A DNA stretch of 64,000 nt, taken from contig LR991653.1 of the NCBI GenBank assembly GCA_905171695.1, positions 958,258 through 1,022,257 of the forward strand. Direction: 5' to 3'. The position numbers were made by a program, and so were the translations under genes. Within the stretch, counting starts at the first letter, position 1; the number at the start of each line of letters is the position of its first letter. The DNA is from Candidatus Methanoperedentaceae archaeon GB37 (lineage in GTDB: Archaea; Halobacteriota; Methanosarcinia; Methanosarcinales; EX4572-44). The notes under the pieces were generated by a model. The model saw only the letters and a program-made list of their open reading frames with translations, ran no database searches and was not told where the DNA came from. Below, piece by piece: positions 9,270 through 44,190 of this stretch.

Positions 9270-9370
9270 AAAACCCACCCACCTCCAAAATCTCATCAAA
9301 TTAACAAAGAAATCAAAAATCTTCCTGACCAAAACAGAAACCTTTATTAACTCATTTTCAACATAAAAGA

Positions 9371-9499: not shown

Positions 9500-9672
9500 C
9501 GTAAGCCATCGTCAAATTACTCGTCAAATATACGGATCAGAAAGAGAAAAGCAGGGGGTGATGGACGGGGATTGAGGAGGGAATCCGGTCTCAGTGGCAC
9601 TTATTATTCACGCAGGGGGTTTGGTTTAAGTTTTGACCGCTGTGTGGGGTAAACCAAGACGCTCATTAGTTG

Positions 9673-11568
<1,896 letters not shown>

Positions 11569-11735
11569 TCATCTCCAAATTAGTTCTACAACACGATCAG
11601 ATCTGTGAAATCTCTCTTTACCCGGGGCAGATCAAAACAATAGACGAAGGTGGAGAGAATTGATATCCTCTCATACGACAGGATCGGTTAAAAAGGTTAC
11701 TCAATAACAAAATTGGAGAGACCTCGTTTCGATAG

Positions 11736-11744
11736 AGATATAAC
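11736..11744 (+). promoter_or_regulatory. Possible box A of flavoprotein gene
   Basis: AGATATAAC lies about 45 bases upstream of the ATG at 11788, with a purine-rich ribosome site (GGTGGAAGAAG) directly before the ATG. Spacing fits a short leader. Confidence 0.35.
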
Positions 11745-11787
11745 CGATGCGGTAAAAGTTGATTGAGTACGTTACTGGTGGAAGAAG

Positions 11788-12906: not shown

Positions 12907-12961
12907 AGTAATAACACTCCTGATTGATGCGATCTAATCAGGTCTTTCTGGTGATGTCATT

Positions 12962-14242: not shown

Positions 14243-14245
14243 CAC

Positions 14246-16346: not shown

Positions 16347-16421
16347 TGCTCCGATGGGGATTTGAACCCCAGTCGCAGGATTGAGAGCCCTGCATGATTG
16401 GCCGAGCTACACTATCGGAGC
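16347..16421 (-). tRNA. tRNA-Glu (anticodon CTC)
   Basis: A 75-base cloverleaf: acceptor GCTCCGA with TCGGAGC, D arm with GTGTAGCTCGGCCAATCAT as in archaeal tRNA-Glu, anticodon stem CAGGG/TCCTG with loop CTCTCAA, and T arm CTGGG-GTTCAAAT-CCCCA. The anticodon is read at 16483-16385 minus 100, i.e. plus-strand 16383-16385 (GAG). CCA is not encoded. Confidence 0.93.
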
Positions 16422-16455: not shown

Positions 16456-16470
16456 CTTATTAAAGTTTCG
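16456..16470 (-). promoter_or_regulatory. BRE/box A promoter of tRNA-Glu, fused to the repeat array
   Basis: On the minus strand CGAAACTTTAATAAG reads as a good BRE plus TATA element, centred about 39 bases before the mature tRNA 5' end. The CGAAACTTT part is the last unit of the 16-bp tandem array, and the array ends exactly where the TATA continues. Confidence 0.55.
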
Positions 16471-17005
16471 TTACTGTAAAGTTTCGTTACTGTAAAGTTT
16501 CGTTACTGTAAAGTTTCGTTACTGTAAAGTTTCGTTACTGTAAAGTTTCGTTACTGTAAAGTTTCGTTACTGTAAAGTTTCGTTACTGTAAAGTTTCGTT
16601 ACTGTAAAGTTTCGTTACTGTAAAGTTTCGTTACTGTAAAGTTTCGTTACTGTAAAGTTTCGTTACTGTAAAGTTTCGTTACTGTAAAGTTTCGTTACTG
16701 TAAAGTTTCGTTACTGTAAAGTTTCGTTACTGTAAAGTTTCGTTACTGTAAAGTTTCGTTACTGTAAAGTTTCGTTACTGTAAAGTTTCGTTACTGTAAA
16801 GTTTCGTTACTGTAAAGTTTCGTTACTGTAAAGTTTCGTTACTGTAAAGTTTCGTTACTGTAAAGTTTCGTTACTGTAAAGTTTCGTTACTGTAAAGTTT
16901 CGTTACTGTAAAGTTTCGTTACTGTAAAGTTTCGTTACTGTAAAGTTTCGTTACTGTAAAGTTTCGTTACTGTAAAGTTTCGTTACTGTAAAGTTTCGTT
17001 ACTGC
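16462..17005. repeat. 34-copy 16-bp perfect tandem repeat
   Basis: The unit AAAGTTTCGTTACTGT is repeated head-to-tail 34 times (544 bases) with no spacer. All copies look identical except the last base of the final unit. Stop codons occur in every frame on both strands. One end supplies the last codons of the five-heme cytochrome gene, and the other supplies the BRE half of the tRNA-Glu promoter. Confidence 0.97.
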
Positions 17006-17525
17006 CGAGTATCAGGTCTTGATGCAGGCTCTGTATGTCTTCTACGTGGCAGAGGTCACAGGTGTATCCTCTGTAGATATGGATCTCGATTATTCCTCCA
17101 TAGCTTGGTTTGAGTGGGTCTTTCGGGTCGTGGCAGGCGTCGCATACCGTTTCATCTCCTGGTAGACGCTTCGGGATGTACGTTGTTGGGTTGTGGCAGT
17201 ACCTGCATGAGAGATTCACGGTCTTATCACTCGTATGCAGGCCATGAACGTCTGAACCGTGACATGCTGCGCAGTAGGCTCCTCCGTTCATGTGCTCTGG
17301 GATCTTCTCTGGTTTCAGGTGGCAGACCTTGCAGTCGATGCTCTGCCCAGGGATCTCTTTAAACTCTGGTATCATCACTCTGCCCCCTTCTTCTTCTATT
17401 CTGTCCTCCGGGGTGGGTGTGAGTGTGCCGGTTGTGAGTGCTATGTATACAATGCTTCCTGCAAGCACGATTCCTGTTATCAGCATCGCTATAAGGTATG
17501 CTGTGTCTCGATCCTTCATTGCCAC
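16983..17525 (-). CDS. Membrane-anchored five-heme c-type cytochrome
   Basis: 180 aa. A hydrophobic helix at about residues 9-31 has no clear cleavage site, so it is probably a membrane anchor with the rest outside. Five heme motifs follow: CKVCH, CAACH, CRYCH, CDACH and CDLCH, with several extra histidines (HGLHTS, EIHIYRG) that may be distal ligands. The pattern recalls small c7-type or NapC-adjacent electron carriers. The last seven residues, GSNETLQ, and the stop come from the 16-bp tandem array, so the original C-terminus has been altered. The start overlaps the lipoprotein gene by 10 bases. It is last in the minus-strand cytochrome operon. Confidence 0.87.
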   Translation of the reverse strand: MAMKDRDTAYLIAMLITGIVLAGSIVYIALTTGTLTPTPEDRIEEEGGRVMIPEFKEIPGQSIDCKVCHLKPEKIPEHMNGGAYCAACHGSDVHGLHTSDKTVNLSCRYCHNPTTYIPKRLPGDETVCDACHDPKDPLKPSYGGIIEIHIYRGYTCDLCHVEDIQSLHQDLILGSNETLQ

Positions 17526-17932
17526 GTCAGGGTGATCGTTTTGGTATCGAGTGTGTCCCCGTTTTCGTCCACCACTTTCATGATCACGTTGACATTGTCG
17601 CCCGGTTCTGGCATCGTCATGAGCTCTGATCTCAGTTCGTACTCTCCTGGTCCGGTATACTTGGTAGAGCGCCAGTAACCGAGCTTCTGCATGCTATCCT
17701 TCTCTATTATAATGAGTGTTACTCCGGGGGTGTGTGCTGGATTGTCTCGGTACTCTTCAAGGGCGCTCACACTCTGCTCTTCTGCCACGAGTTCTGTTAT
17801 CTGTGGAGTGCCATTCGTCTCTCTGATCGTTGCTCTGGCTGTGACGACGGTCTTCTCTTCACCGATGCAGCCTGATAGGACTACCATGAGTGATAGTGCT
17901 ATCAGCACTCCTGTTATGATCTTGACCTTCAT
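17516..17932 (-). CDS. Lipoprotein of cytochrome cluster, unknown function
   Basis: 138 aa with a signal sequence ending in the lipobox LSGC (Cys about residue 22), so probably lipid-anchored on the outer face. The rest is beta-rich, with MKVVDENGDTLDTKTITLTW at the end, like a small Ig-like or FxLYD-type domain. No heme motif is present. It sits between two small cytochrome genes, 37 bases after one and overlapping the other by 10 bases, so it may be a structural or docking part of the same complex. The family is not recognised. Confidence 0.8.
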   Translation of the reverse strand: MKVKIITGVLIALSLMVVLSGCIGEEKTVVTARATIRETNGTPQITELVAEEQSVSALEEYRDNPAHTPGVTLIIIEKDSMQKLGYWRSTKYTGPGEYELRSELMTMPEPGDNVNVIMKVVDENGDTLDTKTITLTWQ

Positions 17933-17968
17933 ACTTTCACCTTCTTATAAAATATATTTTCATTTGAT

Positions 17969-18778
17969 CTATATGTACTTTCGTCTCTCTGATGATTTAC
18001 CTGCATGGGTGTTGTGCGTCTCTCTGATGCTGGCATTGATCGTTATCTCACCGTGACATGCTCCGCATGAGAGGTATCCTTTCGAGAGTCGATCGCCGAT
18101 TGCATTGCCGGGTGTGCTGTTGAACGGTCTTCCTGCCGGGTAGGAGCTTGACTGGTTTACTAACTGGTGATAGAGTGGCGAGTGGACGTTCCCCTGGCTC
18201 AAGAGTGAGCCTGCCTCTGTTACCCGCATGGTTGCCGCTTCAAAGAGGCTCTGATCGTTGTAGGCATGGTTGCTGTTTCCATGGCAGCGGTCATCGTCAC
18301 AGGTGCGAACGATAGCGGTGTGTGCCCCGGAAAATCCGAATATGGTGGAGTTGTGGCAGAGGTGGCATACCTCATACCCGTTTATCCCACAACTACCGTC
18401 TCTATCGAGCGAGACGAGTGCGATTCTCCCATCACTCGTGCGCTGCCATGCATCTACCGTGGAGTTCCAGACCCATGTATCGTTTGTACCATCACCATCG
18501 CCATCATAGTTGGTGAGTATGTGCGTCTCGTTCTGCGAGATCCCTGCAATCGAGAGGTACGTCGTGTAGTTCGTGTTGTTCGCCGCGCGAAGGTGCGCTT
18601 CACGCACGTAAGACTGGCTTGCCATGAACTCAGAGTACTCGCCAGCGTGGCACTTTGTGCAGTTCATCTTGGAATAGAAGGTATGCATCCCGACAAACAT
18701 GCTCTCTGTATCTGGCATGATGAAGACTATGAGGGCAATGATTCCAACGAGGAGTATTGCTAACTGGTATCGCTTCAC
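17969..18778 (-). CDS. Four-heme membrane-anchored cytochrome
   Basis: 269 aa from a GTG start that overlaps the stop of giant cytochrome 1 (GTGA), so translation is coupled. An N-terminal hydrophobic helix (residues 5-22) is followed by CTKCH, CHLCH, CGACH and a wider CDDDRCH (CX4CH), giving three canonical and one unusual heme site. A DGDGDGTND stretch near residue 95 looks like a calcium-binding loop. It probably sits on the outer face of the membrane and could pass electrons between the cell and the secreted giant protein; this role is inferred from position. Confidence 0.85.
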   Translation of the reverse strand: MKRYQLAILLVGIIALIVFIMPDTESMFVGMHTFYSKMNCTKCHAGEYSEFMASQSYVREAHLRAANNTNYTTYLSIAGISQNETHILTNYDGDGDGTNDTWVWNSTVDAWQRTSDGRIALVSLDRDGSCGINGYEVCHLCHNSTIFGFSGAHTAIVRTCDDDRCHGNSNHAYNDQSLFEAATMRVTEAGSLLSQGNVHSPLYHQLVNQSSSYPAGRPFNSTPGNAIGDRLSKGYLSCGACHGEITINASIRETHNTHAGKSSERRKYI

Positions 18779-21700
18779 ACAGACACCTCTCTTGGAAAGA
18801 TCTTATCAGGCAGGATGTGGCACCACCTGCACTCGTGCTCTGCAGACGAATTGTAATACCTCGTTGCATTATAGTACCCGGTCTCATCGTGACATGCTGT
18901 GCAGTTCGTGCTCGAAAGGATCGACTCTCCTGGTGTGTCTGTCACGTTGTGCCGATCGGTCTCATTTAAAAAGTCGCTCTGGTACGAGTGGCAGCACTCA
19001 CACCACTTCCAGCCATACTCCTCTGATGGATGGTCATTTGAGTGTTCTGAGTAGCCTGTGCTTGTGTGACAGTCCGTGCAGTTCACCGAGTGGTGGACGC
19101 TCTCGTTAAAGAGGGTTGCATTCACGTAATAGACCTCTACGATCGTGCTCTCCAAGCTGCCGTGGCATCCGAGACAGTCAGTGCCGCCACCTCGTTTGAG
19201 CGCTGCATCGTGTATCTTTCCTGCGCCGTGGCACCTGCTGCAGTTGGATCCGTGCGTGATCTTCTGGCAGGATGGATCGATGAATGGGTTGAAGATGACT
19301 GATGAGTTGTTGTGGCAGTACTGGCAGTATCTGGTGCTGTTTGTTAGGTTTCGCAGAGTGGAAAGCTCGGTGTAGTTTCTGGCATAGTGTGATACGTACG
19401 ATACTCTACTCCCATATGGGTCATCCTCTATGAAGCTCACCTTCATCTCGCTCATGTTATGGCATCCAAGGCACGACCACGTGTTATTATCCTCGTTCTG
19501 GAGCGCATCGATCTCGCCACCTGATCTGAAGTGCTCATGTACTGCTGTGGCGTTGCTCAGATTGATGTGTGGAGCGGTTCCGTTGTGGCAGTCCCAGCAC
19601 TGATAGGGTGTGCGTACGATGTCGCCCATGTCAGATGTTGGCTCTCTGCCATCTGACTGGTGGCAGCCCCAGCACTTCTTGTTGGAGGCGGGTATGTGTG
19701 TGGAGTTGGTGGTGTTGTTGTTGACGTTCGCATGCACACCGCTGGCGACGGCGGTTACATTGATCCTGTGCTCGGCAGAAGAGCCAGTATCATGGCACTT
19801 GATGCAGTCACCGCCCCCGCCAGAACTCATGCTCTCCGCGTGGAAAGTCACGGGCATCAGCCCTGTGGTATCGTGGCACTCATAGCAATTTGAGTTGTTA
19901 TAATTCTGTTCATGTGTTACGATCTTCGCACCCCCCCATGTTATATTTTCAGGCGTGTTGTTGTGGCAGTAGAGGCAGTCGGTCGTGTTGTTCAGATGGG
20001 TCATCAGCATCCCGTGCGTACTGTTCAGGCCGTAGTGAGAGGCGATCGCTTTGAGGGTGTTTCCGATGATGCTCTCATCGGTGTCGTTGTGATATGGGTC
20101 GATCGAGTTGTTGTGGCAGTACTCGCAGGTTCCGTTCGGAGCTCCTGATATGTTCGTCCTGATATTCTCGGCGTAAGGTGGTGGTATATGATCGTAGACT
20201 CGTGGCGGGCTTCCAAAGAGTGATGCATAGGTGTATCCTGAGGAGGTTGCATGGCAGTACCCGCAGTATAATGGGTCTCTCACATTCTCAGGGTGGCCCA
20301 CAGGCTCGGTGCCGTCGCCGTGGCATACCCAGCACGAGACGCTCTCCTGATACTCGCTTGCCCCAGGGTCGTTCAGATCTCCATGCATCCCATTCCTTAT
20401 CGAGGTCGCATTGATGTTGGTCGCGTCCATGCCGGTGTCGTGGCATGCGATGCAGTCCGGGCCTCCGCCAACGAAGAGGGTTTCGCTGTGGAAGTATGGT
20501 TTTTCAGGTGCTTCCTTCGTTGTTACATGGCAGTCGTAGCACCTCGAGTTGTTTGTGTAGATGTCAGAGCCGAGATCGGTGGTGTGCACAAAGTTTGTTC
20601 CGAGCGTGATGTTCGTTGCATTGCCCCACTTTAATGCGGTTTCATTCTCGGTGTAATGGCAGTAGAGGCAGTCGGTCGTGTTGATCAGCATTCCGAAGCT
20701 CCTGTTGAGCGCATAGTGAGAGGCGATCGCTTTGAGGGTGTTTCCGATGACTGCCTCCCTTGTGTCGTTGTGATGCGGGTCTATCGAGTTGTTGTGGCAG
20801 TCTGCGCACGTCCCGTTTCCGTTCACATTGGTCTGGACATTAGGAGCGCTTGGCTGGTGCTCAACCACGAGCGGTGGTGATGTGGAGTCGTTCCATGTAT
20901 TCCATCGTGTTTCATACTCTATGTGGCAGTCAGAGCAGTTCCATGGGTGATTGTATCGATCGCCCATCGCGCCCACGTACTCTCCATCGGTGTCATGGCA
21001 TGCCCAGCAGATCTTGTTACGCGAGTCGAATGGATAGTACTGATGGTACGAGGTTGTGTATGTGATCGCGATATCGTCGAGTCTTGGTGTCTCGTTCCCA
21101 TCGCTCGTGTTCAGGTATACTCTGTACTGTATCCACTGGTCGTTATCATGGATCGGATTGATCTCTTCACCTGATGCAGTGTAGTAATCATCGGTTCCGG
21201 TGGGTCCATACCATGGTGCAGAATAGAGTAGAGACTCGGTGGCGCCAGATCTGAGCCTGAAGCGCATGCCTGTATTCTCTGGGAGACTCCCATCCCATCT
21301 GATGGTGCTGAAGCTATAGTTCTCGCCTGTCGAGTATGCTGCGGATGTGAGGTTCCCCTCACTCTTATAATAGTACCATGTGACCCCCCAGTCGTGGAGG
21401 ACTGGTGTGAAGGATGCATTCAGGGTTTTGAGCGTGGCTCTCAGCCTGATGCTTCTCGCTGTGATCGATGAGAGGAGACTTCCGTTCGAGACTGTTGCAA
21501 GCGTGCAGTTTGACGCGTTGAGAATCTCGTAGACGATCTCGTCTCCACGCTCCTCTGCGCCGATGCTTGCAGTTGGCTCTCTCTCACTATACCTGCGGAC
21601 CCTGAGATCATCGATATGGATATGGAATGTATCATTGCCTCTTCCTGAGAAGGACAGATTGGTGTACTCGAGCGTCGAGTCGTTTGCCTGGATCTGTCCA

Positions 21701-24700
21701 ATGGTTGCATCGGAGAGCATGGCTCGGGCCGTGAGTTCGTTCGTGCTTGCAGTCTTCCTGACCGCTGTTATGAATGTGTAATTTATTCCTGCCGAGATAT
21801 TCGTGTCCAGGCTCTCTGTGGCGAGATTGCTCCATTTGCCAGAGTCCACTCTCTTTATGCTGAGATCGGTCTCGTTTAACGAGGAAACGTACCTCTCATC
21901 CTCGTCATGGTATCGTGGACTCAGGTATATCGAGCCATTGGTGCTATCGATCCATCTCACAATGGCTTCAACGATGTAGTCATCAGGAAACTGGGTTGAG
22001 TTGATCTCAGCGATGACCTCTTCACCACTCGAGCCGTTGATGTGGTAGACTCCGTTCTCGACATACTGCTGGCTTGGATACGTGGTTTTGTTGATCGAAG
22101 CGTTTGTCAGGGATGCATTCTCGAAGTCATCCCCAAAGAGGAATGTATCATGGATGCTGCTCTCTGAAGTAGCAGATGGATTGCCATAGTGCATGTAGAT
22201 CGTCTTCTGGGATGGTATCTCAGGGATTTTCACCCAGAGAACCGCTGATGTTGCTTCTGTGTACTCTTCGATCCAGTAGGGCAATATGCTCCCATCAGAG
22301 TCTGTGAACCTGAGATCAGAGAAGTCGCTCTTCATATCGGAATCATAGGTCACGTTGATTCTGACCTGATAGTCGGTTAGCGGCCCCCCTGTGTTCTCGA
22401 TTGTGACCGCTCGCCTGTACTTCCAGTTCAGTGTATCGTTCGCGTGGAACGTGCCCCAGCCTCCGAGTCTCTGGGGTGCAATCAGGGTTGAGGTCAGGTT
22501 TCCAGTGGTGCTTCCAGTGCTGAGAGAGACGTCTCCGCCTGATATCGTCACATTACTCGATGATGCGATCTCTGATGTATCGGTGAATGTATCGTTCTCC
22601 TCAGAGGAGATGGTCTCAAGTCTCACAACGCTTGTTGCACTGATGTTAAGCGATCCATTGTACTGAGTTGACGTACTCTCTCCGATACCACCGCTCCAGT
22701 CTTCTTGCGTCCACGTGTTTCCTGGATCGGTCGCATTCTGGTTGATCCTTCTATGTACAGAGGTTGATGCAACGCTTGATACGTTGACGCCTGAATCAAC
22801 ACCGAAGCCAGCATTGAAGCCTGAATCCGTTGAGGTGTCGTGGCACATCGTGCAGTTCGGACCTCCCCCCCAGTTGAGTGGTGACTCGTGGAAATCATCT
22901 GGCATTGCCACTCCATAATCGATGTGGCATGCATAGCACTCGCTATTCTCAGTTGCATTGTACATATCCATCGTGCCACTCGCGTATATCTGAGTTGCAC
23001 CACCCCATCTCGTGCCATTGGTACTGCTGTTGTGGCAGTAGAGGCAGTTGAGCGTCTCAAGACTCACCCATCTTCCGTAGTGTGATACGTTTGCATCGAG
23101 CGTGTTTCCAAGCAATCGCTCATCTGTATCGTTGTGATATGGATCGATCGAGTTGTTGTGGCAGTCAGCACAGGTCCCGTTCCCGACTACGTTCGTTGTG
23201 ACGTCGGTTGAGTTCGGGGAGTGCTCGACGATGCCTCTTGGAGGGAGGGGGCTTCCATCTGCCGACCATGTGTAGCCATTCATCGTGGCTGCGTTCCACT
23301 CTGCACTCGGGGTGTGGCAGTCCTCGCATCTCCATGGATCATCGTATCGATCGCCCATGCCCTCTGGCTGGAATCCATCTGACTGGTGGCACCCCCAGCA
23401 CGGCTTTGAACTATCGTTCACATCGATCTGCTCATAAGCGTTCTCTGTCACGTTCTGGTGAATCCCATTGTTCACTGATGTTGCGTTCGTCTCTGTGAAC
23501 CCGTAGGGATTTCCCTTGTCATGGCAGACGATGCAGTCAGGTCCACCTCCTGAGTAGAGTGTCTCGTTGTGGAAGTTACCTGGGATCGTGAGATCCTCCA
23601 CAGGGTCATCAGGATGGTTTCCGATCACATGGCAGCCATAGCACTCCTGGTTCGTCGAGACCCCTCCTGAGTGCGTCTCCATATCAACAATCGTCGCGTT
23701 GCCCCAGACAGCAGAGTTCGTCTCGTTGCAGTGGCAGTAGATGCAGGATGTGGAGTTTGTCGTCTCGTTCATCAGCATCCCGCCTGTGCTGTTCAAGCCG
23801 TAGTGGGATGTGTTTCCGAGGATGGTTGTCTCATTATAACTCTTCCAGTGCCATACCCCGTCGTCGGTGCAGTACCTCGTCTTCAGTTCACCGATATCGG
23901 TGATCCTGCTTGGATAGTGGCAGTCCTCGCATGAGCCTCCCTTCGCAGGATCGGTCTGGATCCTGATCGATCCCGCGCCCTTGGTGGTGGGACCATGGTT
24001 CTTGATTATGGTGGCACTGTGGGTGACGTCAGGATTGCTCGCATTGACATGGGGAGGCTGGTACTCTCCATGGCACTTCGCGCACTTGTATGGATTCAGG
24101 GTTCTATCCGGATGGTAATTCGGATATGGGGGCGTGCCGTTCGTTGCATGGCATCCCCAGCAGATCTTATTATCCTCTGATACACTGGATGCATCAAAAC
24201 CCCTTCTCTCTGCCCAGTATGTGATGTTGCAGTCGGAGTTTACGCCTGCATGCATACCGAGTTTCATCGCTGTCACGTTCACCATCGGGCGGATGGCGTC
24301 AGGATTGCTATTGTCATGGCATTCGGTGCAGTCTGGACCCCCTGTTGGGGTGATCGAAAGCATATCCCGACCATAAGAACCCCACTCACTCGTATTATAG
24401 GGTTCAGAACCAGCACTGTGGCATTCCATCTGGCAATAACCCTCTGGGTCGCTCGTGATTGCGCCGCCTCTATTCAGGCTCTCGTTATACCAGTCATCAG
24501 GTATATCATATCCGTTTGCCTCGTTCAGGAGGTATGCTGGATAGGTGGAGTTGTTGATGAATCCAAAGAACCCGCCTGTCGCGCTCGAGCCTGGCTTTAC
24601 TGACTGGTTGCGATTCATCCTCGGGATATCAGAGCCATGTGGGTTATGGCAGTTCCTGCACCCTGGTGAGAGCATGCCGTCCCAGTACGAGATGTGTCCC

Positions 24701-27700
24701 TGGTGATAGTTCGGCTGCATAGTGCCGGTTCCGTTCTCCCAGAAGTTCGTCTTCTGAGTAGTTGTATTCAGGATATTCTCTTCGAGGTGGCATGTGTAGC
24801 AGAGATCGAACGCCTCTGAAAAATAACCATCAAATGCGTTTGAAAGCGTATCGGTTCCGGTATAATAGTACTTCACAAGATCGTACTTCCATTCCTTTGT
24901 GTGACCATTGATCGTCACGTTCTCTGGCACATCCCCATGGTTGTCGTGGCACGTCTTGCACGAGATATTCCCGTCGTTCACGGGGTGCGCTGTTATGCTC
25001 TGAAACTCGGTATACTGATCTCCATACGGACTTCCGATCCCATGGCAGCTGCTACCGCTTGCGTTGTCACTCCCGTTGTAGCAGAGCCATGGACTCTGCA
25101 CCGCGAGGAGGTTGGGTCCTGATGACCTTCCGTGTGGGATTGCCTCGGTATCGGTCTCGTTGTGGCAGTACGTGCAGTTTCTTGCATCCGATCCTATGGT
25201 ATCGTTCGCGTGCTGTGTCAGTTCGAACTTCTTCTTATCCTCGTGGCAGTAGTAGCACCGGGTGTTAACGATCCAGCCTGTTGTGACGATCAGGGTCGCT
25301 CCCTTTCCTTTCACCTGGTAGTCGGTATCGTTGTATCCTGTCTGGTTGGTGAGGGTCGTGGCATTGGCATACACTCCGTGATCGACTCGCTCGGTAGGGC
25401 TTGCTGTAAACTGGGTCACATTGGGGAGCGTATCATAGTATGAACTCAGACGCCCATCCGTTCCTGTGATGCCGGTGAAGATCGTTGCGTTCCCTCCTGT
25501 TTCATTGTACCTGAATGTGACACTGCTTCCTGCCATGTTCTTGATGTAGAGGGAGTCTGTGACCCATACGTCGAGATACCATCTGACGGTCAGAGTTGCG
25601 CTATCGGTCAACCCGTATCTGCTCTCATTGAATGCTGTGTCGAGTATACAGGCTTCTGTGCTGCCATCGAGGTAGAAGTCGTAGTTGTTGAGTTGCGCCT
25701 TTGTCTGGGTGATCGTGTTGTTATCCGATGATTCGATGTAGACATCGTAGACGCCGCTTCCTTCGATCGTGTTTGCGATCAGTTCATTGAATCTGGACGA
25801 GGATATGAAATGAACACCATTGTCACTGTTATTCAGGATACTATTCCATGTGACGTTGTTATTGCTGGATTGGACGAATGCTATGCCTGTGTCTGTGTTG
25901 TTCAGGATCGTGTTCCTCTCAATCTCATTGTAATCAGAGTGAGAGAGGTGCAGCCCATTCCCGCCGTTGTATGAGATGTTGTTCTCTGTTATGTTGTTGT
26001 GATCAGATTCGAGCATGATCCCGCGACCACCATTGGAGCATATACTGGTGTTGATGATGGTGATGTGTTCGCTCGATGCATCGATCCGAAGTCCATGATC
26101 GGCGTTCTTCGAGAGATTGCCATCCGTGAAGTTGATGTGATCTGACGAATGGAGATAGACGCCGTAATAGGTGGTGCTGGAGCAGGCGGTATTGTTCACA
26201 AGGGTGTTATAGTCAGATCCATCGAGATAGAATCCAAAATAAGTGTTTGAGGAGGCGGTATTGTTCATGAGACTGTTATTCTCTGATGCACCGAGATATA
26301 TGCCCCTATCATTCCTGTTTGTGATGCAGTCTGAGATGGTGTTGTTGCTGGAGGATAGGAGGTAGATTCCGTAGGAATCGCAGTTTGAGGCAACGATCTC
26401 CTCTATGGTGTTATTCCTTGAAGAGGTTATATGCACCCCATCGTCTCCGCTCTTCGATACATTGTTTCTCTCCAGGTCGTTGTTGTGGGATGATGCAACG
26501 TATATGCCGCTTCTACCACTGCCTGATGCATCGTTATCATCGATCACGTTGTGACTCGATGAGGAGAGGTGGATCCCATCGTTCCCGCAGCTAGGTAGAT
26601 GATTCCCGCTGATATTGTTGTTTGAGGATGAGATCAGATATAACCCGTTCTCTCTGATCTCTGTCAGATTGTTCTCGATTATAGTAATATTATCTGATGA
26701 TTTGAGATAGATGCCATGGTATCTGTTTTTTATGGTGTTGTTTTCGATCACAAAGTCTGCACAGTCGATCAGCGAGATCCTGCCGAGATTGGAGACATTG
26801 TATGCAGCCAGATCATTGTTTTTGATCTCTACTGATGTATAATTATAATAGTAGTATACAGGCTCGCCATCCACGGTATTGCTGTACGGATCGATCGCGT
26901 TATCATAATCATTTACAATATAGAGTGCTGTGTGGGTGCTACCGGTTATATTATTATCTGTTAAGTTGTTATTGCTGGATGATTCTATATAATATCCATG
27001 CACGGTATCGAGGACGGTGCTGTTTCTTATGTCGTTATTCTCGGATGAATCGAGGTAAATGCCATCTGAACTCGATGAAACGGTGTTATTCGAGAGAAGA
27101 TTGTAAGAGGATGATGAGAGCCTGAACCCGGAGTCTGGGTTCCAGCTCACTCTATTGTTGGTCAGGTTGTTGTGATGAGAAGAGGCGAGGTAGATGCCGT
27201 CGTGATCATTGCTGGTTACGGTGTTGTTGACAATCTCGTTCTGACTGGAGGACGTCATATAGATTCCATAATTGTTATTCGATGCATTGTTATCGGTCAG
27301 ATTGTTAGAGTCGGATGAAGATAGTTCAATGCCATAGTAGTTGTTCAGCAGTGTATTGTTGATGATCGTGATGTTGGATGAAGTGACCAGTCGAATGCCA
27401 TCTCCATCATCGATCGTGCTATCCCTTATCACAAAGTTGGAACAACTGGCAAGCGTCACATGCCCGACATCGTTCTGATCTATCCTGAGAGAGCTATCGT
27501 TGTTGTAGTAATAGTAGACCTTCTTCCCGTTCACAAGATTGCTCTGATCAATATCGTTCTCGTAACCGGAGGTGACATACAGCCCATAGCGTGTGTTATC
27601 TGTCATGTTATTACCCTCTAGGGTACACTCCTCTGATGAGTCCAGATATACGCCGTACCTGCTATTCGATACTGTGTTATTGATCAGGTCGATGGCATTC

Positions 27701-28737: not shown

Positions 28738-29058
28738 TCATACCACTCATATTAGATAACTTTTTCAATAATAATTATCATATAATATACTTTCTCTGTG
28801 TATCGCTTCACACAGACACCCCTTCTGGAAAGATCCTATCAGGCAGTATGTGACACCACCTGCACTCATGCTCTGCAGATGAATTGTAATACCCCGTTGC
28901 ATTATAGTACCCAGTCTCATCGTGGCATACGGTGCAGTTCGTGCTCGAAAGGATCGACTCTCCTGGCGCGTCTCTCACGTTGTGCCGATCGGTCTCATTC
29001 AAAAAGTCACTCTGGTACGAGTGGCAAGCACTCACACCACTTCCAGTAGTATTCTTCG
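28528..29058 (-). repeat. 531-bp direct repeat, copy A
   Basis: Nearly identical to 36534-37063, offset 8006 bases (8005 after the single-base insertion). It covers the N-terminal leader of giant 1, its promoter and the C-terminal tail of giant 2. The promoter part is identical; elsewhere only scattered substitutions are seen. Confidence 0.92.
28775..28790 (-). promoter_or_regulatory. Promoter of giant cytochrome 1
   Basis: The 70-base gap before the ATG at 28737 carries, on the minus strand, an AAAG followed by TATATTATATGATAA-like box A, about 40-50 bases from the start. The whole gap is identical to the one upstream of giant cytochrome 2. Confidence 0.65.
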
Positions 29059-35000: not shown

Positions 35001-36743
35001 GTTGACTCTCAGGTAGTTCCTGTATGCTGAAAATGTGGTTGAGCTTGAGGTCTGACCAGCGGCATCATTGGCATAGATGACAACATTCCACGTTCCCACC
35101 GAGGTGGAATCAACAGGCATGGCAGTATAATTATATTCATATATAGAACCATTGGTTATCGCGGAGATGTTGGTCATAGAAGCGTTATTCACCATAACAG
35201 TTGAATTCGGACTGATTATGGTGATGTTGACCCCAGTGATATCGGATGCTCCATCGACATCGGTTACGTTTGCCCTTATCGTTACGTTTTCACCGATTGC
35301 AAAGATTCTTTTTTCGATTAAGGAGGAGTTGTAGGTTTTTACTATTTCTATCGAAGGTGGTTGATTGTATACGATCTTCAAATGCTCGTAATCAAGGTAC
35401 GTATACCGCCAAGTACTCCCTCCTCCAACACTGACCCATTTGTAACGCAGCTTTACATTGTTCGCCTCGCTTACTGTGTCGATAGAACTGCTCAAGTCAC
35501 AACTGCTAGTCGTTTCGGTTGTGGTTTGATCAGGATCATATACCTGAGTCCATGTGCTACCATCCCACCACTCAATGGTGAGATCTGCACTGCTCGTGGT
35601 GCTTTCCTTGTGTTCAAAGTAATAAGTTACCGATGTAATAGCACTTCCATCCGGTATGCCATTATCATTCCATTCTGATTCTATCCAATCGGTGGAGTCA
35701 CCGCTTCCCCCTCCTCTAACATCGAGTGTCGCATAAACGTCGTCGCTTGTGCTCACTTCGGTTATGACATTCGTAGTATCATCTTCCACAGCGGTATCAG
35801 GCGTCTCATCAAAAGTCGTAGGATCCACCGCCACATACCATCGCCCCGCCTCGACAAACCTCCCACCATCCCATCCGATCTCCATAGCTCCGAGCTCATA
35901 CAACTTCGGGCACACCATCGGCACCGAGTACGAATAATTAACAGACGTCCTGCCGTCCAAGAGATCCTTATGCCACGTCAGGATCGTTGTATCATTCTCC
36001 CGAGTTACGTCCGCATCCGTAGAGACCGTGAAGACCGATGGCACGCGTTCTTTGATCACAACAGTACCAGCATCTGTACGCGTGACGATATCCACCACCA
36101 CATCGAACCAATCCTGCACGGTCGGATCGATCACGCTATCAGCAGTCCGTATGATATCAAAATCATACTCTGAGCACACCAGAAAATACGTATCAAAGAA
36201 ACACTCTCGTCCATCGATCACCGCACTGGCATTCACCCAGTACCTGCCTTCAACACCGGTATGGTCGAACGCTGCCCTATACACACCGCCTCCAATCTCA
36301 ACGATCTCGTCGTGCAGGGAATAAGTAACGGCATCCGGCGCAGTGATTCCGAGGTTGACGTCTGCACCGGTAAGAGGAGTGCCTTTTCGATCAAGAAGAA
36401 CGATATCAAGTCCGACAGTCTCACCGGGTAGATAGATGCTTTTGTTGCTGTTTACCGAGACACCGGTATATGGCATAGGCAACGTGGCAGCGATGAAGAT
36501 ATTCCCGGTGATATCCTCCACTACATTGCTCACGTTGTTGCTGAGGAGTGTGCTCCATCTCTCGTCGTTTGCAGTGGTGACGTTGATCTCTCCGTATTCT
36601 GCTGCTCGCACCATGTTGCAGAGAGTGAGAGTGTAGAGATTGAGGATGAGAATCAGTGTGAGAAGACGTGCCGTGGACATCCTCCGAGGACTCTCTGAAT
36701 AACCGATCTCATATCTGACCATGGTAAGATGGGATGCGAACAT
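28808..36743 (-). CDS. Giant multiheme cytochrome 2 (Ig-like + about 33 hemes), one frameshift
   Basis: Would be about 2645 aa, but one extra A at 29026/29027 shifts the frame: the upstream part ends at 29007, after WKWCEC, and the last 90 or so residues continue in another frame to 28808. The sister genes have CECCHSYQSDF at this place. The leader and AAEYGEINVTTAN match giant 1. Residues 60-800 are Ig-like/MG2-like beta domains rather than a beta-helix. Hemes then run from about residue 810, with a heme-free Ig-like stretch at about 1660-2105 (including a CARDB or NEW3-like domain) between two arrays. I count about 30 CX2CH plus three CX4CH (CAGSGCH, CYDSSCH, CVDPLCH). Two related CIxCHSPMH..CxxCHK..CTxCHSQD blocks suggest internal duplication. 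No membrane anchor is seen at the C-terminus. Confidence 0.85.
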
Positions 36744-37063
36744 TCATACCACTCATATTAGATAACTTTTTCAATAATAATTATCATATAATATACTTTC
36801 TCTGTGTATCGCTTCACACAGACACCCCTTCTGGAAAGATCCTATCAGGCAGTATGTGACACCACCTGCACTCATGCTCTGCAGATGAATTGTAATACCT
36901 CGTTGCATTATAGTACCCGGTCTCATCGTGACATGCTGTGCAGTTCGTGCTCGAAAGGATCGACTCTCCTGGCGCGTCTGTCACGTTGTGCCTGCTGGTC
37001 TCATTTAAAAAGTCGCTCTGGTACGAGTGGCAGCACTCACACCACTTCCAGTAGTACTCTTCG
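36534..37063 (-). repeat. 530-bp direct repeat, copy B
   Basis: Partner of 28528-29058. It covers the leader of giant 2, its promoter and the C-terminal tail of giant 3. A third, C-terminal-only copy lies at about 18765-19010 at the end of giant 1. Confidence 0.92.
36781..36796 (-). promoter_or_regulatory. Promoter of giant cytochrome 2
   Basis: Same box A and 70-base leader region as upstream of giant 1, placed about 40-50 bases before the ATG at 36743. Confidence 0.65.
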
Positions 37064-40000
37064 ATCGGGTGCCACTGGACTGGTTCTCTTCTGTGTATGT
37101 GACAATCAGTGCAGTTCACCGAGTGGTGCACGCTCTCGTTTAACATCGTCTCGTTCACGTAATACTCATTCATCGCAGAATCGTTCAGTCCGAAGTGGCA
37201 TCTCTCGCACTCCTCTCTCCACGTTATCTCCGGGATCTTCAGGTTCTGGTCGTGTATTCTTCCGGAGTTGTGGCACTCTGGGATTATGCAGGCTGCAGTC
37301 TGCGTTGCGTGTGGGATCTTCTCGGTGTAGTTCGGTGAGCCTGATCGCTCAAAGATCTCGATGAACTCGTTGCTCAAGTTCCTGTGACACCACGTGCAAT
37401 CTGATAGGTTGCTCTGAATGGCGATCTCTGGACGACTGCGTGAGTAGTGTGATGCCTGTGACAGGTTCACGCGGTAGGGCGCCGTCTCGCCTGCATCATA
37501 GTCAGGTACTTTCATCGTGGTGAGATTGTGACACCCGTATCCGCAGGACTCTGAGTTCGTTTCGGCAGTGGTGCACGCGCTGATATTAACGCCTGACTTG
37601 AAGTGATTATACACAGGAGTTGCATTGCTGACGTTCTGGTATGCCACTGTGCCGTTGTGACAGTCATAGCATAGGTATGCACCGTTGTTGATCGTGTCCT
37701 GATGCCCGTTCACAGGTTCCACGCCACCGATCACATGACACCCCCAGCACTTGCTGTTGTTGGCGTTGCTTCCCTCTCCACCACCACCCGCAACACTGCT
37801 CATGTTGATGTTCACATCACGGTGCACACCAAGGTTCATCGCTGTGAGATTGATCTTATACGCACTCCTGTTCTGGACATCTGATGGCAGGAGCTCGTGG
37901 CAACTGAGGCATTTTGAACTGGTCTTGGGTCGTGTCAGGGTGTTCTCGTGCAGCCTGCCATCGCCATGACAATTATTTTTATTGCAGCCCCTGCCGCGAT
38001 CATGCACAATATTCTTATCATTCTCGTACTCCATGAAGACCGTGGATGTATTCTTGTGGCAGTAGGAGCAGTAATCGGTTGAGTTTGCAGGATCGTATAA
38101 GTCTACGAGATCGCTTCGATTGTCACCGTAGTGCGACACAATCGAGAAGTTCGTGTAGTAAGGTGTTGTCTCGTTCTCGTCTGGAAGATAATAGTAGAGC
38201 ATCTCTGACTTGCTGTGACAGCCCATGCACGACTCTGAATCCGTGGGCTTGGTCCAGTAAGCTGCCACAACGGTTCCATTCTTGAAGTGGTTGTGCACTT
38301 CGGGTGCATCGCTCACATTACTGAATAGCGTGGTGTTGTCTTTGTTGTGGCAGTCATGGCAGATGTAGGGTCTTTCTCTTCGCGTGCTATGGTTGTCTGC
38401 ACTCGTTCCGTTATCGAAGTGGCATGCCCAGCAGCTTCGGTTTAAGCTGTATTCCATTGTTGAGGCGTTGTTCACCAGGTGATGGATCGATTCGGCGAAG
38501 ATGCTGCCGTTGATGCGCCTCGCATCTGCGAAGCCTGAAGTGTTATGGCATCTGAGGCAGTCAAATCCGCCCTCGCCTGCTGTCAGGCTCTCTGCGTGGA
38601 AGTTTGCTGGTGTCTGATGATCATTCGTGTGGCAGTAGCACCCATCAGGGGCAGAATAGTTATCAAAGTTTCCGTGCGTGTTCTGTGGAGCGCCTCCCCA
38701 CTTCGTGCCGTTGCCCGTGCTGTTGTGGCAGATTGCGCAGTCCTCTGTCGGTGTTATTAGATCTGTTTTTGTGCCGTAGTGTGAGACGTTTGAGAATATC
38801 GTGTTTCCGAGAATCTTTGCCTCGGTGTCGTTACTGTGTGGATCAATCGAGTTTGTGTGGCAGTCGACACAGCGCCCTAGTCCATCCACATTGGTTTTGA
38901 CCGTTGTTGAGTTCGGGTGGTGCGCGTATATTCGTGGGGGGAGTCCGTTTGGCGGATAACTCGATGCTATCCAGCTCTCACCATTGCCGGTGGCAGCAAC
39001 CCACTCGCTCGTTCTCGTGTGGCAGTCCTCGCACGACCACGGTCTCTTATGTGGCAGGTAGACCCAGTTTCGATCACCCATGCCCTCTGGCTCGCTTCCG
39101 TCGCTCGTGTGGCAGCCCCAGCACGGCTTTGATCTCGGGTCAATATCTGGTATGATCTCAATGGTGTTGTTGGTCACGTTTCCGTGAATGCCCTGCGAGA
39201 TAGAGGTTGAATTTACGAGTGACTGAACACCATAGGGGCTGTCCACGTCATGGCATTCCACACAGTCAGGTCCCCCGCCTGAGTATATCGATATGTTGTG
39301 GAAATTAGGGATGGTCTCTTCGGTTATGTTGCCGAGGTAATCGGGTAGCACGTGGCAGTAGGTGTAGCACTCAGATAGGTTTGATGTGTTTGCCCCGTAC
39401 ATATTGTCGGTCACGTTCGGAGCGTTGCCCCAGATAGCGCCCTGTGTCGAGTTTGTGTGACAGTAGAGACAGTTGGACGTGTCCACCAGTGGATTTTCAA
39501 TGCCGAGATTCACTCCCTGCGACCTGTTCAATCCGTAGTGTGAGACGTCTCCATTATGGGTTCTCCCAGTGTAGGCAGTCCAGCCGCCACTGCTGTACTT
39601 CCACACCTGAAGGATGCCTATCATGCTCTCAGGGAGTCTGCTCGGGTAATGGCAGTCCTCACACGAGCCGTTCGTCCCGACATCGGTCTGAATATAGATC
39701 GATCCAGCGCCTTTCGTTGTTGGACCATGGTTATCGATCGCCTTCACCCTCCCCCTCGTGTGCGGGGGTTGTCCTGCTTCTGGCCCGTGGCACTTGGCAC
39801 ATCGATACGGGAGTAGCGCCCGATCAGAGTGAAAAGTCGGATTCGGGGGTGTTCCATTGGTAGAGTGGCATGACCAGCAGAGTGCATTGTCTGTTGAGAT
39901 GTTTGCAATCTCAGTTGCTGTGTAATTGCGGTATTCGAGCCACTCGGTGAAGTTCTTATCGGTTCCAGCGAGATCTGCGCCGTCTTCAGCCCACTGGCTA

Positions 40001-43000
40001 AGGTTCTTATGCATCGCAATCTTCATTGCGGATACGTTCACGATCGGGCGGATCGCATCCGGGCGACCGCTGTCGTGGCACTCAACACAGCCAGCGCCAC
40101 CTGCAGGCTCGTAGTCGATATATTCTCGATAAATAAAGCGACTTGGAAGTCTGGCTCCACTATGACACCCGCCACAGGTTGGACTTGAAAGCCCACCGCC
40201 CTGATTCATCTCTGGATTGCTCCAGTTTGCCTCGTCCAGTACCTCCTGATACTCATAAACGCCACTTGGATACTCGTCACTTGGAGGTGTTAGATTGGTG
40301 ATGTAGGTGTATGCGAGCGAGGGGCGTGTGGTTGCTGGATAGTTGGTTCCGTGTGGATTGTGACACTGGTAACATGTATAGTAGTAGTGTCCCCTGTGTA
40401 CATTGTAGGGATTTGGCGTTCCATCCCCAAAACCTGTCTTCCACCAGTACTCGTCCCTGAAGTTTGTCTGATTCGTGTAATTTTGAAGATGTGAGTTGGT
40501 CTCGCCCGTCATCTTTGCTTTGAGCTTCTCTTCAAGGTGACAGGTAAAACAGAGACTGTAATCGTACGAGTTATACGTTTTTTTGGTAGCATTCGTATAC
40601 GTTCGCAATAGATCATACCTGAGTCCTGTACCGTGGTTGTCATGGCATGATATGCATCCGAGCTGTCCCTCTCCAAGCGGATGATGGGTCGTCTGGTTGA
40701 ACTGTGTCTCCTGCTGCAATCGCGACTGGGTTGCATTTGAGCTGTGGCATGAAAGATTGCTTGTCCCGCTGTAACACAGTCCTGGGCTGTGCTGGTGCAG
40801 CATATCATTTCCACTCGCAGTTCCATGTGGAATGGTTGCAGAGTCGTTCTCATCATGGCAGTCGATGCATCGCCCAGGCGTGTATGGATCTGACATATCG
40901 GTCAGGTTCTCGGTGTACTTTGTCCAGTGTATCATATCGGTGAACGTGAGCTTCTCCTCGTGGCAGTAGTAGCACCTGCCGTTCGGAGTGTAGCCGGCAT
41001 TAACGATGATCGTGACACCTGGCTTGCGAACCCTCACTGTGATATTCCGATACGAGGTGTCTCTCCCCTGAAGTCTATCCCACTGGTTGATAACAGTACA
41101 GTTCATGGGAGCTGATTGATAATCAACTCTGCCAGTCGCATTCTCCTTGTACTCGATTACTGGAAGCCAGTTGTCGGTTGAGGTGGGTGGTCCCCAGTAC
41201 TCGGTTGGATTGTTGCTGAGGCGTCCATTGAGGTTTGAGACTGTCCCGTTCCAGATGAGTATCCCGCCAACATCGCTGTAATCGCCGTATCGTACCGTGA
41301 GATTTCCCCAGATCGGTTCTACGTGCTTGTTGTCCCACGAGAGAACATCAATTCTCCACATCAGAGTAAGGTTCGAGGTGTCTTCGTAGCCCACATCGGT
41401 CTTATTGAATACGGTATCAAGCGTGCACAGTCTTGTGTCGCCTGTCAGGTAAAAGGTGTAGTTTTCTGCCGTGGTCTCGTTTGGTGCGATAATGGTATAA
41501 TTTGAGTCGTTTATGCAGATATCAAACTCTGCACCACTTCCTCTACTGTGAGAGTTGTTGATCAGTGTGTTGTTCAGGGAGTACTCGATGAGGCGGATCG
41601 CTGCAGAGGAGTAGTTCGTGATATTGCTGTTGGATATGTTGTTGTAGAGCGAGGTTGTGAAGTTTATTCCGTCCGGGCTTCCTGTGACGCTGTTGCATGC
41701 AAGGTTGTTATGATCAGAGTCTTTGAGAAGGATTCCGTTGATTATGTTTAATGCAAGGTTGTTATCTGTGATATTGTTATAATCAGAGAGGTTCAGATAA
41801 ACGCCGCTGTTTTCGCTTGTATTTATCTGATTCGTATCATTGATGGTGTTGTTTGAGGAATTGTATAGATAGACTCCAAGATAGTTTCCCTCGATGGTAT
41901 TGTTTGAGATCGTGACATTGCTTGAGTTGTAGAGGAAGATCCCTGAAGAGGAAGCGACGCCGTCGATGTAACTGTTGTTTGTGAGAGTGTTTCCCGTTAT
42001 CTCAAAATCATAGCATTTTATCAGCGTTATCTTGCCCACGTTGCTCACCCTTGCAACGGTCAAAGGCTCGACCGTGACGGTCTCGGATGAGTTGCAGTAG
42101 TAGTAATATATGCTCTCACCGTTCACCGTGTTGTTCTGGTAGATATAATTGTCATACTCTCCAAAATCGATGTAGAATCCATAGCCTGTTCCAGAGTTGA
42201 TGGTTATGCTGTTATTCGAGAACGTGTTATCATCGGTATCTATCCAGATCCCATTGTCGCTGTTGTTAACTATTGTATTATCAGAGATTCGATTTCCCGC
42301 AGAATCTACCCTGATGCCGTTTCGCGAGTTGTATGAGAGGATGTTGCCTACGATGGAGTTGTTGGTCCCTGAGAGGATGGTAACTCCACTTCTCGGTGTG
42401 TATGCTGTGCCGCCATCGTTCGATAACACGGTATTTCCTGTGAGAGTATTATGAGAGCCGCCATCTATCGTGACGCCGCCATACGAGTTATCTGAGAAGT
42501 TGTTATACTGGACTCTATTATAGTTGCTGTTGCTGGTAAGATGCAATCCATCAACATCCTTGTTCTTTGCCGTGTTATTGATAAGATCATTACCTGAAGA
42601 AGCGCTGAGAAGTATTCCATACGTGCCGCCACTGTAAGTTATGATGTTGTCTCTCAGGTTGTTGGAATTGCTTGAACTCAGAAGCTCAATTCCCACGCCA
42701 TCAGTGCCTGTTCCAGTTATGTTGTTCTCTATCAAATTGTTGTTAGTGGAGCCTGAGAGCCTGATCCCTGCAGCATTATCGTCAGATGACCCGCTGCTTG
42801 AAACTGTGTTGTTTGTAATGTTGCTGCTATGCGAACTTGTTAGTGATACTGCGGTTATATCTGTGTTTGTTATGGTGTTATTGGTAATGTTAGCACGGCT
42901 TGAGCTTAATAAGACTCCGTAGTAGTTGTTGCTCTGGAAAGTGTTATTGTTGATGGTGATATTCGCTGTGGATGAAATAATACGTATCCCATCACCGTTC

Positions 43001-44190
43001 ACAACAAACGTGTTATCACTGATAGAGGCGTCAGAACAGTTATAGAGCGTGACGTGCCCGATATCTTTTCCAGTGATCTCGAAACTGCTGTTGTCATGCC
43101 TGTAATACACGATACCGCCGTTCACTCGATTGCTCGTATCAATATCATTCTCATAATTCCCTGTGACATAGAGATTGCGTCCACTGCTGTTCAGATCGGT
43201 ATCACGCAGGGTATTGTTACCAGACGAGGTGATGTACACGCTCCCACTCACAGAGTCCACTATCGTGGAGTTCGTGATGGTGTTCGCATCGGCAGAGGAT
43301 AAGTATATCCCGTAGTTGTTGCTGCTGCCTGCAATACTGAGACCATCGAGACTGTTGCCTGTGGATGATTCAATTCTCACGGCATCGTAACTGGCAGACG
43401 AGTACGTTCCTCGTGTGATGCTCACGTTACTGAACGCGTTGTTGTCCGAGTTATCGATGTAGAGGGCGTGATAATAACATCCTTTCAGAGGGACTGTGAT
43501 ATTCTCAAAGGTGTTGTTATCAGAGTTTGAGAGTCTGATGGCGTAGCTGTACCTGCAGGTGGCACTCGAACTCGTTGATGATGTCTTTATCGTGCAGTCC
43601 CTGAGACTTGCATTCGCAGCCCCGTTCAGGTAGATACCGTGGCAATCGCCACTGGGATGAGTCTCGTCTCCGTGGTCGAGCGTTACATTGGAGAGCGTGA
43701 CCGTTTCATTTGTTTCTATCTTGAAACCTGAGTTGTAGATACAGAAACTGACGGTGGCGTTTGAGAGATTGCCCATGCTACCGCTCTCGTATCGCCAGCC
43801 ATAATACTTTGAGTCAGAATCATACCTTGTGACCGTTGAACCGTTCACATTGAGCGTTCCGTTCTTGCAAACGATGATCGAAGGATACTTCCAGCTACCA
43901 GAGTAGTATCTGTCCATCTGTATCGTCGCATTCTCCACGGCAAGCACAGCACCGTCATTCACAATGATATTCCCAGCAACCTTGCTCACGTTGTTGCTGA
44001 GGAGTGTGCTCCACGTCTCGTCGTTTGCAGTGGTGACGTTGATCTCTCCGTATTCTGCTGCTCTTCCGGGAATGGAGATTATGAGGAGAGAGAGTGTGAA
44101 TATAAGAAATATCTGGGTAGCGCTCGTTATAGATTTCTTCCAAACTTTATCCTTTATCAGATGTCGTCCAGCAGTGAGCCATTGGCACAT
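36814..44190 (-). CDS. Giant multiheme cytochrome 3 (beta-helix + 30-36 hemes)
   Basis: 2458 aa. The N-terminal leader differs from the other two, with a hydrophobic core at about residues 27-43, but it ends in the same AAEYGEINVTTAN motif. Residues 55-930 are NosD/PbH1 beta-helix repeats with many sequons, then a short beta domain, and hemes from residue 1072. I count 30 CX2CH motifs plus irregular ones: CYSGTSNLSCH (CX8CH), CYTYCH and CGYGCH (CX3CH), CNKNNCH and CIIPECH (CX4CH), and CYCH (CX1CH). The six-heme module of giant 1 is present twice. The C-terminal tail is nearly identical to those of the other giants. No anchor is visible, so it is probably secreted. The gene has its own upstream region with a 14-bp palindrome. 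Confidence 0.9.
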   Translation of the reverse strand: MCQWLTAGRHLIKDKVWKKSITSATQIFLIFTLSLLIISIPGRAAEYGEINVTTANDETWSTLLSNNVSKVAGNIIVNDGAVLAVENATIQMDRYYSGSWKYPSIIVCKNGTLNVNGSTVTRYDSDSKYYGWRYESGSMGNLSNATVSFCIYNSGFKIETNETVTLSNVTLDHGDETHPSGDCHGIYLNGAANASLRDCTIKTSSTSSSATCRYSYAIRLSNSDNNTFENITVPLKGCYYHALYIDNSDNNAFSNVSITRGTYSSASYDAVRIESSTGNSLDGLSIAGSSNNYGIYLSSADANTITNSTIVDSVSGSVYITSSGNNTLRDTDLNSSGRNLYVTGNYENDIDTSNRVNGGIVYYRHDNSSFEITGKDIGHVTLYNCSDASISDNTFVVNGDGIRIISSTANITINNNTFQSNNYYGVLLSSSRANITNNTITNTDITAVSLTSSHSSNITNNTVSSSGSSDDNAAGIRLSGSTNNNLIENNITGTGTDGVGIELLSSSNSNNLRDNIITYSGGTYGILLSASSGNDLINNTAKNKDVDGLHLTSNSNYNRVQYNNFSDNSYGGVTIDGGSHNTLTGNTVLSNDGGTAYTPRSGVTILSGTNNSIVGNILSYNSRNGIRVDSAGNRISDNTIVNNSDNGIWIDTDDNTFSNNSITINSGTGYGFYIDFGEYDNYIYQNNTVNGESIYYYYCNSSETVTVEPLTVARVSNVGKITLIKCYDFEITGNTLTNNSYIDGVASSSGIFLYNSSNVTISNNTIEGNYLGVYLYNSSNNTINDTNQINTSENSGVYLNLSDYNNITDNNLALNIINGILLKDSDHNNLACNSVTGSPDGINFTTSLYNNISNSNITNYSSAAIRLIEYSLNNTLINNSHSRGSGAEFDICINDSNYTIIAPNETTAENYTFYLTGDTRLCTLDTVFNKTDVGYEDTSNLTLMWRIDVLSWDNKHVEPIWGNLTVRYGDYSDVGGILIWNGTVSNLNGRLSNNPTEYWGPPTSTDNWLPVIEYKENATGRVDYQSAPMNCTVINQWDRLQGRDTSYRNITVRVRKPGVTIIVNAGYTPNGRCYYCHEEKLTFTDMIHWTKYTENLTDMSDPYTPGRCIDCHDENDSATIPHGTASGNDMLHQHSPGLCYSGTSNLSCHSSNATQSRLQQETQFNQTTHHPLGEGQLGCISCHDNHGTGLRYDLLRTYTNATKKTYNSYDYSLCFTCHLEEKLKAKMTGETNSHLQNYTNQTNFRDEYWWKTGFGDGTPNPYNVHRGHYYYTCYQCHNPHGTNYPATTRPSLAYTYITNLTPPSDEYPSGVYEYQEVLDEANWSNPEMNQGGGLSSPTCGGCHSGARLPSRFIYREYIDYEPAGGAGCVECHDSGRPDAIRPIVNVSAMKIAMHKNLSQWAEDGADLAGTDKNFTEWLEYRNYTATEIANISTDNALCWSCHSTNGTPPNPTFHSDRALLPYRCAKCHGPEAGQPPHTRGRVKAIDNHGPTTKGAGSIYIQTDVGTNGSCEDCHYPSRLPESMIGILQVWKYSSGGWTAYTGRTHNGDVSHYGLNRSQGVNLGIENPLVDTSNCLYCHTNSTQGAIWGNAPNVTDNMYGANTSNLSECYTYCHVLPDYLGNITEETIPNFHNISIYSGGGPDCVECHDVDSPYGVQSLVNSTSISQGIHGNVTNNTIEIIPDIDPRSKPCWGCHTSDGSEPEGMGDRNWVYLPHKRPWSCEDCHTRTSEWVAATGNGESWIASSYPPNGLPPRIYAHHPNSTTVKTNVDGLGRCVDCHTNSIDPHSNDTEAKILGNTIFSNVSHYGTKTDLITPTEDCAICHNSTGNGTKWGGAPQNTHGNFDNYSAPDGCYCHTNDHQTPANFHAESLTAGEGGFDCLRCHNTSGFADARRINGSIFAESIHHLVNNASTMEYSLNRSCWACHFDNGTSADNHSTRRERPYICHDCHNKDNTTLFSNVSDAPEVHNHFKNGTVVAAYWTKPTDSESCMGCHSKSEMLYYYLPDENETTPYYTNFSIVSHYGDNRSDLVDLYDPANSTDYCSYCHKNTSTVFMEYENDKNIVHDRGRGCNKNNCHGDGRLHENTLTRPKTSSKCLSCHELLPSDVQNRSAYKINLTAMNLGVHRDVNINMSSVAGGGGEGSNANNSKCWGCHVIGGVEPVNGHQDTINNGAYLCYDCHNGTVAYQNVSNATPVYNHFKSGVNISACTTAETNSESCGYGCHNLTTMKVPDYDAGETAPYRVNLSQASHYSRSRPEIAIQSNLSDCTWCHRNLSNEFIEIFERSGSPNYTEKIPHATQTAACIIPECHNSGRIHDQNLKIPEITWREECERCHFGLNDSAMNEYYVNETMLNESVHHSVNCTDCHIHRREPVQWHPIEEYYWKWCECCHSYQSDFLNETSRHNVTDAPGESILSSTNCTACHDETGYYNATRYYNSSAEHECRWCHILPDRIFPEGVSV

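Follow-up and report, generated by a model that had tools for sequence, protein, structure and literature searches.

A three-gene locus of giant multiheme cytochromes related to ANME MHC type C in a genome assigned to Ca. Ethanoperedens thermophilum

Giant cytochromes and the host genome

In the anaerobic oxidation of methane and alkanes, it is an open question how archaea without an outer membrane export electrons to partner bacteria and how the partner is recognised. The closest described counterpart of the proteins reported here is ANME MHC type C (MHC-C), defined in methane-eating archaea and encoded as one giant with 20–80 hemes and a beta-helix, without S-layer domain or C-terminal anchor; recognition of the partner cell wall was suggested by the authors who defined it (Chadwick et al., 2022, PLoS Biol; PMC9012536). 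ANME MHC type B (MHC-B) with CcmF2 is also a giant multiheme cytochrome, and adjoins MHC-C in GoM-Arc1 relatives and in another family (f2). Furthermore, the family of Methanoperedens BLZ2 (f5) has giants in which heme modules alternate with MG2/Ig-like domains and which have small 2- and 4-heme genes as neighbours (e.g., in G063, 2988 aa with 38+5 hemes).

The window analysed here, 64,000 nt of contig LR991653.1, comes from a genome of 1,922,745 bp on one contig. The single Mcr alpha of this genome is identical in 595/595 aa (100%) to ethyl-CoM reductase of PDB 7b1s; this identifies the host as Ca. Ethanoperedens thermophilum. The clade of this heat-loving ethane oxidiser, GoM-Arc1, was set aside in the work that defined MHC-C. 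The same match rules out ANME-1/Syntrophoarchaeia and Archaeoglobi as hosts. According to Hahn 2020 (PMC7175092), this archaeon oxidises ethane with the sulfate reducer Ca. Desulfofervidus; 11 cytochrome genes were counted, some among the most expressed of the culture, and with cytochromes and pili highly expressed, direct electron transfer to the partner was proposed. Where its main text deals with cytochromes, the present locus is not described.

Genes and domains of the locus

Six minus-strand genes with short gaps or overlaps lie at 16983–44190 of the window, arranged as in an operon (ORF calls). Three giants, here called C, B and A, come first along this strand; then come a 4-heme cytochrome, a small lipoprotein and a 5-heme cytochrome:

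36814–44190, minus strand: giant C, 2458 aa, 30 CxxCH and 4 variant motifs, orthologue of ANME MHC type C
29007–36743, minus strand: giant B, 2578 aa, 27 CxxCH and 3 variant motifs, Ig/MG2-like regions alternating with heme modules
18775–28737, minus strand: giant A, 3320 aa, 40 CxxCH and 1 variant motif, beta-helix at about 45–1100, two heme blocks
17969–18778, minus strand: membrane-anchored 4-heme cytochrome, 269 aa, 3 CxxCH and 1 CxxxxCH, 79% identical to the same-genus orthologue
17516–17932, minus strand: small lipoprotein, 138 aa, lipobox-like LSGC, 73% identical to the same-genus orthologue
16983–17525, minus strand: membrane-anchored 5-heme cytochrome, 180 aa, 75% identical to the same-genus orthologue

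These ORFs agree in position and size with the original prediction of three giant cytochromes of 2458–3320 aa in a 27-kb locus. The small anchored cytochromes of that prediction correspond to the 4- and 5-heme proteins, but the lipoprotein has zero heme motifs. Spacers of 70 nt separate C from B and B from A, while A overlaps the 4-heme gene by 4 nt and the lipoprotein and 5-heme genes overlap by 10 nt.

The final codons of the 5-heme gene fall within a 16-bp tandem repeat: 34 perfect copies of the unit TAAAGTTTCGTTACTG at 16461–17004 begin in its last codons (SNETLQ-stop) and stop near a tRNA at 16347–16421. The unit has no copy elsewhere in the genome and none in 19 related genomes, and the array looks like a slippage expansion of the 3′ end of the gene. 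An Rfam search of the locus returned nothing but a tRNA beside it. Elsewhere in the window, 3625–6429 encodes a 934-aa protein in which a glycolate-oxidase/GlcD-like FAD half is fused to an iron-sulfur half of TfrB/GlpC type.

The giants contain 97 strict CxxCH motifs and 8 CxxxCH/CxxxxCH motifs, so that the predicted “over 100” holds with relaxed motifs (105) and not with strict ones. Each giant, with 34 (C), 30 (B) and 41 (A) relaxed motifs, lies within the 20–80 heme sites of MHC-C. In shuffled sequences of equal composition, CxxCH occurs about 0.1 times per protein on average (max 2), which excludes a chance origin. The median motif spacing is 36–40 residues.

In C, a signal peptide is followed by a beta-helix at about 45–1000 and then by the heme motifs. 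The right-handed beta-helices of A and C, about 1000 residues long with a period of 22–23 residues, match the Pfam models Beta_helix and NosD at E-values between 1e-49 and 1e-110; NCBIfam para_beta_helix agrees, marking 19 stretches of A. AlphaFold2 (two sequences only) likewise models a beta-helix, with pLDDT mostly 70–90 over residues 1–850 of the modelled piece; a Foldseek search with this model returned tailspikes, alginate lyases and epimerases, all at low TM-scores, which supports only the fold class. Modelling of the C-terminal heme module reached pLDDT 26, so that structure prediction succeeded for the beta-helix and not for the heme module. A further contains a non-heme insert of about 570 residues (~1990–2560; 21058–22770, minus strand) with DUF2341. 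B has MG2/Ig-like domains between its heme blocks by Pfam, and no beta-helix match in Pfam or NCBIfam. The expected fusions to beta-helix or Ig-like regions are present in all three giants.

The expected lack of surface anchors was also found. S-layer domain PF07752 has no match in A, B or C at E 0.1 in Pfam, NCBIfam is also negative, and neither database detects sortase-like anchors in them. The S-layer negative is meaningful because the same search finds PF07752 (E 1e-10) in L092, a further giant that this genome encodes. A C-terminal transmembrane helix is absent in all three giants, whose only hydrophobic segment is the N-terminal signal; from this segment, secretion is predicted.

A profile search with C and A retrieved near full-length relatives in their own family, in f2, in f3, which includes ANME-2c (by Mcr), and in one f5 genome. 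Orthologues of C in ANME-2c, Methanoperedens and other families are 55–64% identical with synteny partly conserved; in the heme region, C is 58–64% identical to f3 proteins, and A 38–42% over the same region. The Pfam architecture of orthologues from the ANME-2c family, g2 and f2 matches that of C, without S-layer domain, and about 30–41 heme motifs per protein are kept across families. By architecture and homology, A and C are MHC-C and not a new kind of protein, whereas B is not placed there because of its MG2/Ig-like regions and missing beta-helix match. Thus, the predicted “different architecture” fails for A and C, which match MHC-C as published, orthologues of C having the same domains; the tandem array and the chimeric B have no such earlier description. 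The novelty probably lies in expansion and recombination around MHC-C.

Expansion and recombination of the giants

The only congener available, G013, is 61% complete, but its locus is on one contig: LonB, TldD, PmbA, one giant, then the 4-heme protein, lipoprotein and 5-heme protein. Flanking genes are 79–91% and small genes 73–79% identical to those here. One giant between the same flanks indicates that the three giants at this address arose by expansion from one ancestral giant, apparently seen only here. A is a long branch about equally distant from all orthologues, with no closer orthologue found, and is probably a divergent paralogue of C.

The MHC-C genes of g2 and f2 have small cytochromes and an MHC-B/CcmF cluster as neighbours. 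In the present genome, MHC-B, the S-layer conduit, is L092, about 750 kb from the giant locus, with 2159 aa, 35+2 motifs and a C-terminal hydrophobic helix, beside signal peptidase and CcmF. Other multiheme loci of this genome include a 1777-aa, 17-heme giant with four Golvesin_C-type domains (E 2.6e-127; L093, G000:C1:104001-124000, 9709–15042) and four related anchored cytochromes of 4 hemes each, arrayed in tandem ahead of a 9-heme protein (L095, G000:C1:552000-571000, 5848–11259). In the Methanoperedens family, G073 encodes a 3346-aa, 50+2-heme giant (L103, 4831–14871) with an MHC-C-like beta-helix front and an MHC-B-like C-terminal membrane helix, next to a protein of 651 aa that takes the place of CcmF; this giant is an apparent fusion of MHC-C and MHC-B.

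In the heme-region tree, C groups with G073 (94/94), outside the clade of its own family (G013 and g2, 100/100). The affinity changes along the gene:

43291–44058, minus strand: C residues 45–300, grouping with the own family (same-genus and g2 orthologues), support 100/100
40951–43293, minus strand: C residues 300–1080, grouping with G073, 54–70% identity against 33–61% to the own family
38491–39333, minus strand: C residues 1620–1900 of the heme region, grouping with G073, 69% against 53–54% to the own family
36817–38013, minus strand: C residues 2060–2458, the C-terminal heme module, closest to the own genus (67–69%), 29–34% to G073

The G073 grouping has support of 100/100 at residues 300–840, 100/99 at 840–1080 and 97/96 at 1620–1900. 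AU tests reject an own-family clade there (p 6e-8, 0.003 and 1.9e-6, respectively) and reject a clade of C with G073 at residues 45–300 (p 2.8e-5), these p-values being somewhat optimistic as the regions were picked after a window scan. Residues 2060–2458 are 62–69% identical to the own family, with weak tree placement. C is thus a mosaic with a Methanoperedens-like middle, and transfer may have gone either way. A GC3 scan for recent transfer gave no sharp break.

Hidden paralogy or unequal rates might imitate such a mosaic: transfer in either direction would fit the data, a close copy occurs in just one Methanoperedens-family genome (G073), and the congener genomes are incomplete. However, the signal switches sharply along one gene, in beta-helix and heme regions alike, the AU tests reject grouping with the family in three regions and, at the N-terminus, grouping with G073, and a second giant of this type was not found in G013, G003 or G008. 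We regard this explanation as rather unlikely and prefer exchange between families. As a separate observation, the MHC-C of the f2 genome G010 (L109) falls among f3 sequences in the tree (85–86% identity) though its neighbours are f2-type, a hint of either exchange between families or mis-binning.

B is composed differently. The first ~76 residues agree with those of A at 87%, residues 77–498, the Ig-type region, are 74% identical to a protein of f3, the ANME-2c family, and the heme modules reach 48% identity to those of the Methanoperedens-family giants. Its alternation of MG2 and heme modules is like that of the latter, from which it differs in the A/C-type termini and the f3-like residues 77–498. 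B is therefore a chimera, with ends of A/C type, an Ig-type region resembling that of ANME-2c and heme modules resembling those of Methanoperedens. Two or more of the giants are thus patchworks, with some parts from other archaeal families. The shared ends are visible at the junctions:

36527–37071, minus strand: 545-bp block at the C/B junction, C 3′ end, 70-nt spacer and B 5′ end
28521–29066, minus strand: 545-bp block at the B/A junction, B 3′ end, 70-nt spacer and A 5′ end
28808–29026, minus strand: out-of-frame B tail, ~73 codons, the next frame still reading as the A/C tail

The two blocks are 94.9% identical, each comprising the last ~84 codons of one giant, the spacer and the first ~76 codons of the next. 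Simple tandem duplication was rejected as the origin of B: the fronts of A and B are unrelated and their heme blocks differ while the ends are shared, which plain duplication cannot explain and recombination through the shared ends can.

An extra T at ~29026–29027 shifts the reading frame of B for its final ~73 codons. B might accordingly be a pseudogene in decay, or part of the three-gene array might be an artefact of assembly or sequencing; in G013, too, the giant (L111, 476–500) is broken into two overlapping frames, by base error or real frameshift. Yet the shifted tail is still highly similar to A and C and the 70-nt spacer to A is intact, so that the frameshift is either very recent or a base error; B is otherwise open over 2578 codons, and a single-contig genome with divergent interiors makes assembly triplication unlikely. 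We give little credence to decay or artefact.

Proposed role in electron transfer

We consider it fairly probable that this is the MHC-C locus of Ca. E. thermophilum expanded from one giant to three, with unanchored exported giants relaying electrons to the partner and genes diversifying by recombination. The most likely function of the giants is extracellular electron relay together with contact for direct transfer to the sulfate-reducing partner, the role of MHC-C being putative in ANME too. Electrons from ethane oxidation would pass to membrane cytochromes and to the anchored proteins with 4 and 5 hemes. MHC-B, the giant at the distant locus, would carry them across the S-layer, after which they would travel along C, B and A to Ca. 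Desulfofervidus. Having no C-terminal anchor, the exported giants would act outside the S-layer, where the beta-helix front of A and C, or the Ig-like front of B, may serve as a stiff module at the surface or for contact, while the 30–41-heme tails may relay electrons. In their recombination, starts and ends would be conserved or homogenised and interiors exchanged with other archaeal families.

The giants may instead be mainly adhesins, with hemes for storage or metal reduction. The beta-helix fold is common to phage tailspikes and alginate lyases, and the suggestion of cell-wall recognition for MHC-C (PMC9012536) points the same way. But some 30–41 heme motifs are kept per protein from family to family and anchored cytochromes are co-located, so we judge this unlikely compared with electron relay.

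Polymerisation into nanowires like those of OmcS/OmcE/OmcZ is a still more doubtful alternative. Cytochrome filaments are made by related archaea, and the hemes of the giants are many and closely spaced. The Omc-type proteins are likewise multiheme extracellular electron carriers, but known filament cytochromes are far smaller single modules with 4–8 hemes, and a long beta-helix front is, to our knowledge, not a filament feature. A PDB sequence search with C and B gave no match to solved structures at E 0.01, and no homology of C or B to the Omc type was found; by size, the 8-heme L094 elsewhere in the genome is a likelier candidate. Of the predicted secreted conduits or filaments, electron transfer to the partner therefore remains plausible, while the search with C and B gives filaments no support.

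Under the favoured reading of an expanded MHC-C locus, the family extends to a cultured ethane oxidiser (Ethane50 culture) and differs from its ANME form in having three giants in tandem, a mosaic C and an A with a non-heme insert. The locus shows giant cytochromes multiplying and recombining across families, and pinpoints their variable and conserved parts. More tentatively, MHC-C loci may be cassette systems, in which the conserved first ~76 and last ~84 residues serve as recombination arms while archaeal families exchange the heme blocks and the fronts, whether beta-helix or Ig-like, changing the partner surface recognised, with three variants kept side by side in Ca. E. thermophilum. If this is true, a syntrophic archaeon could in this way redirect its electron wires to other partner surfaces.
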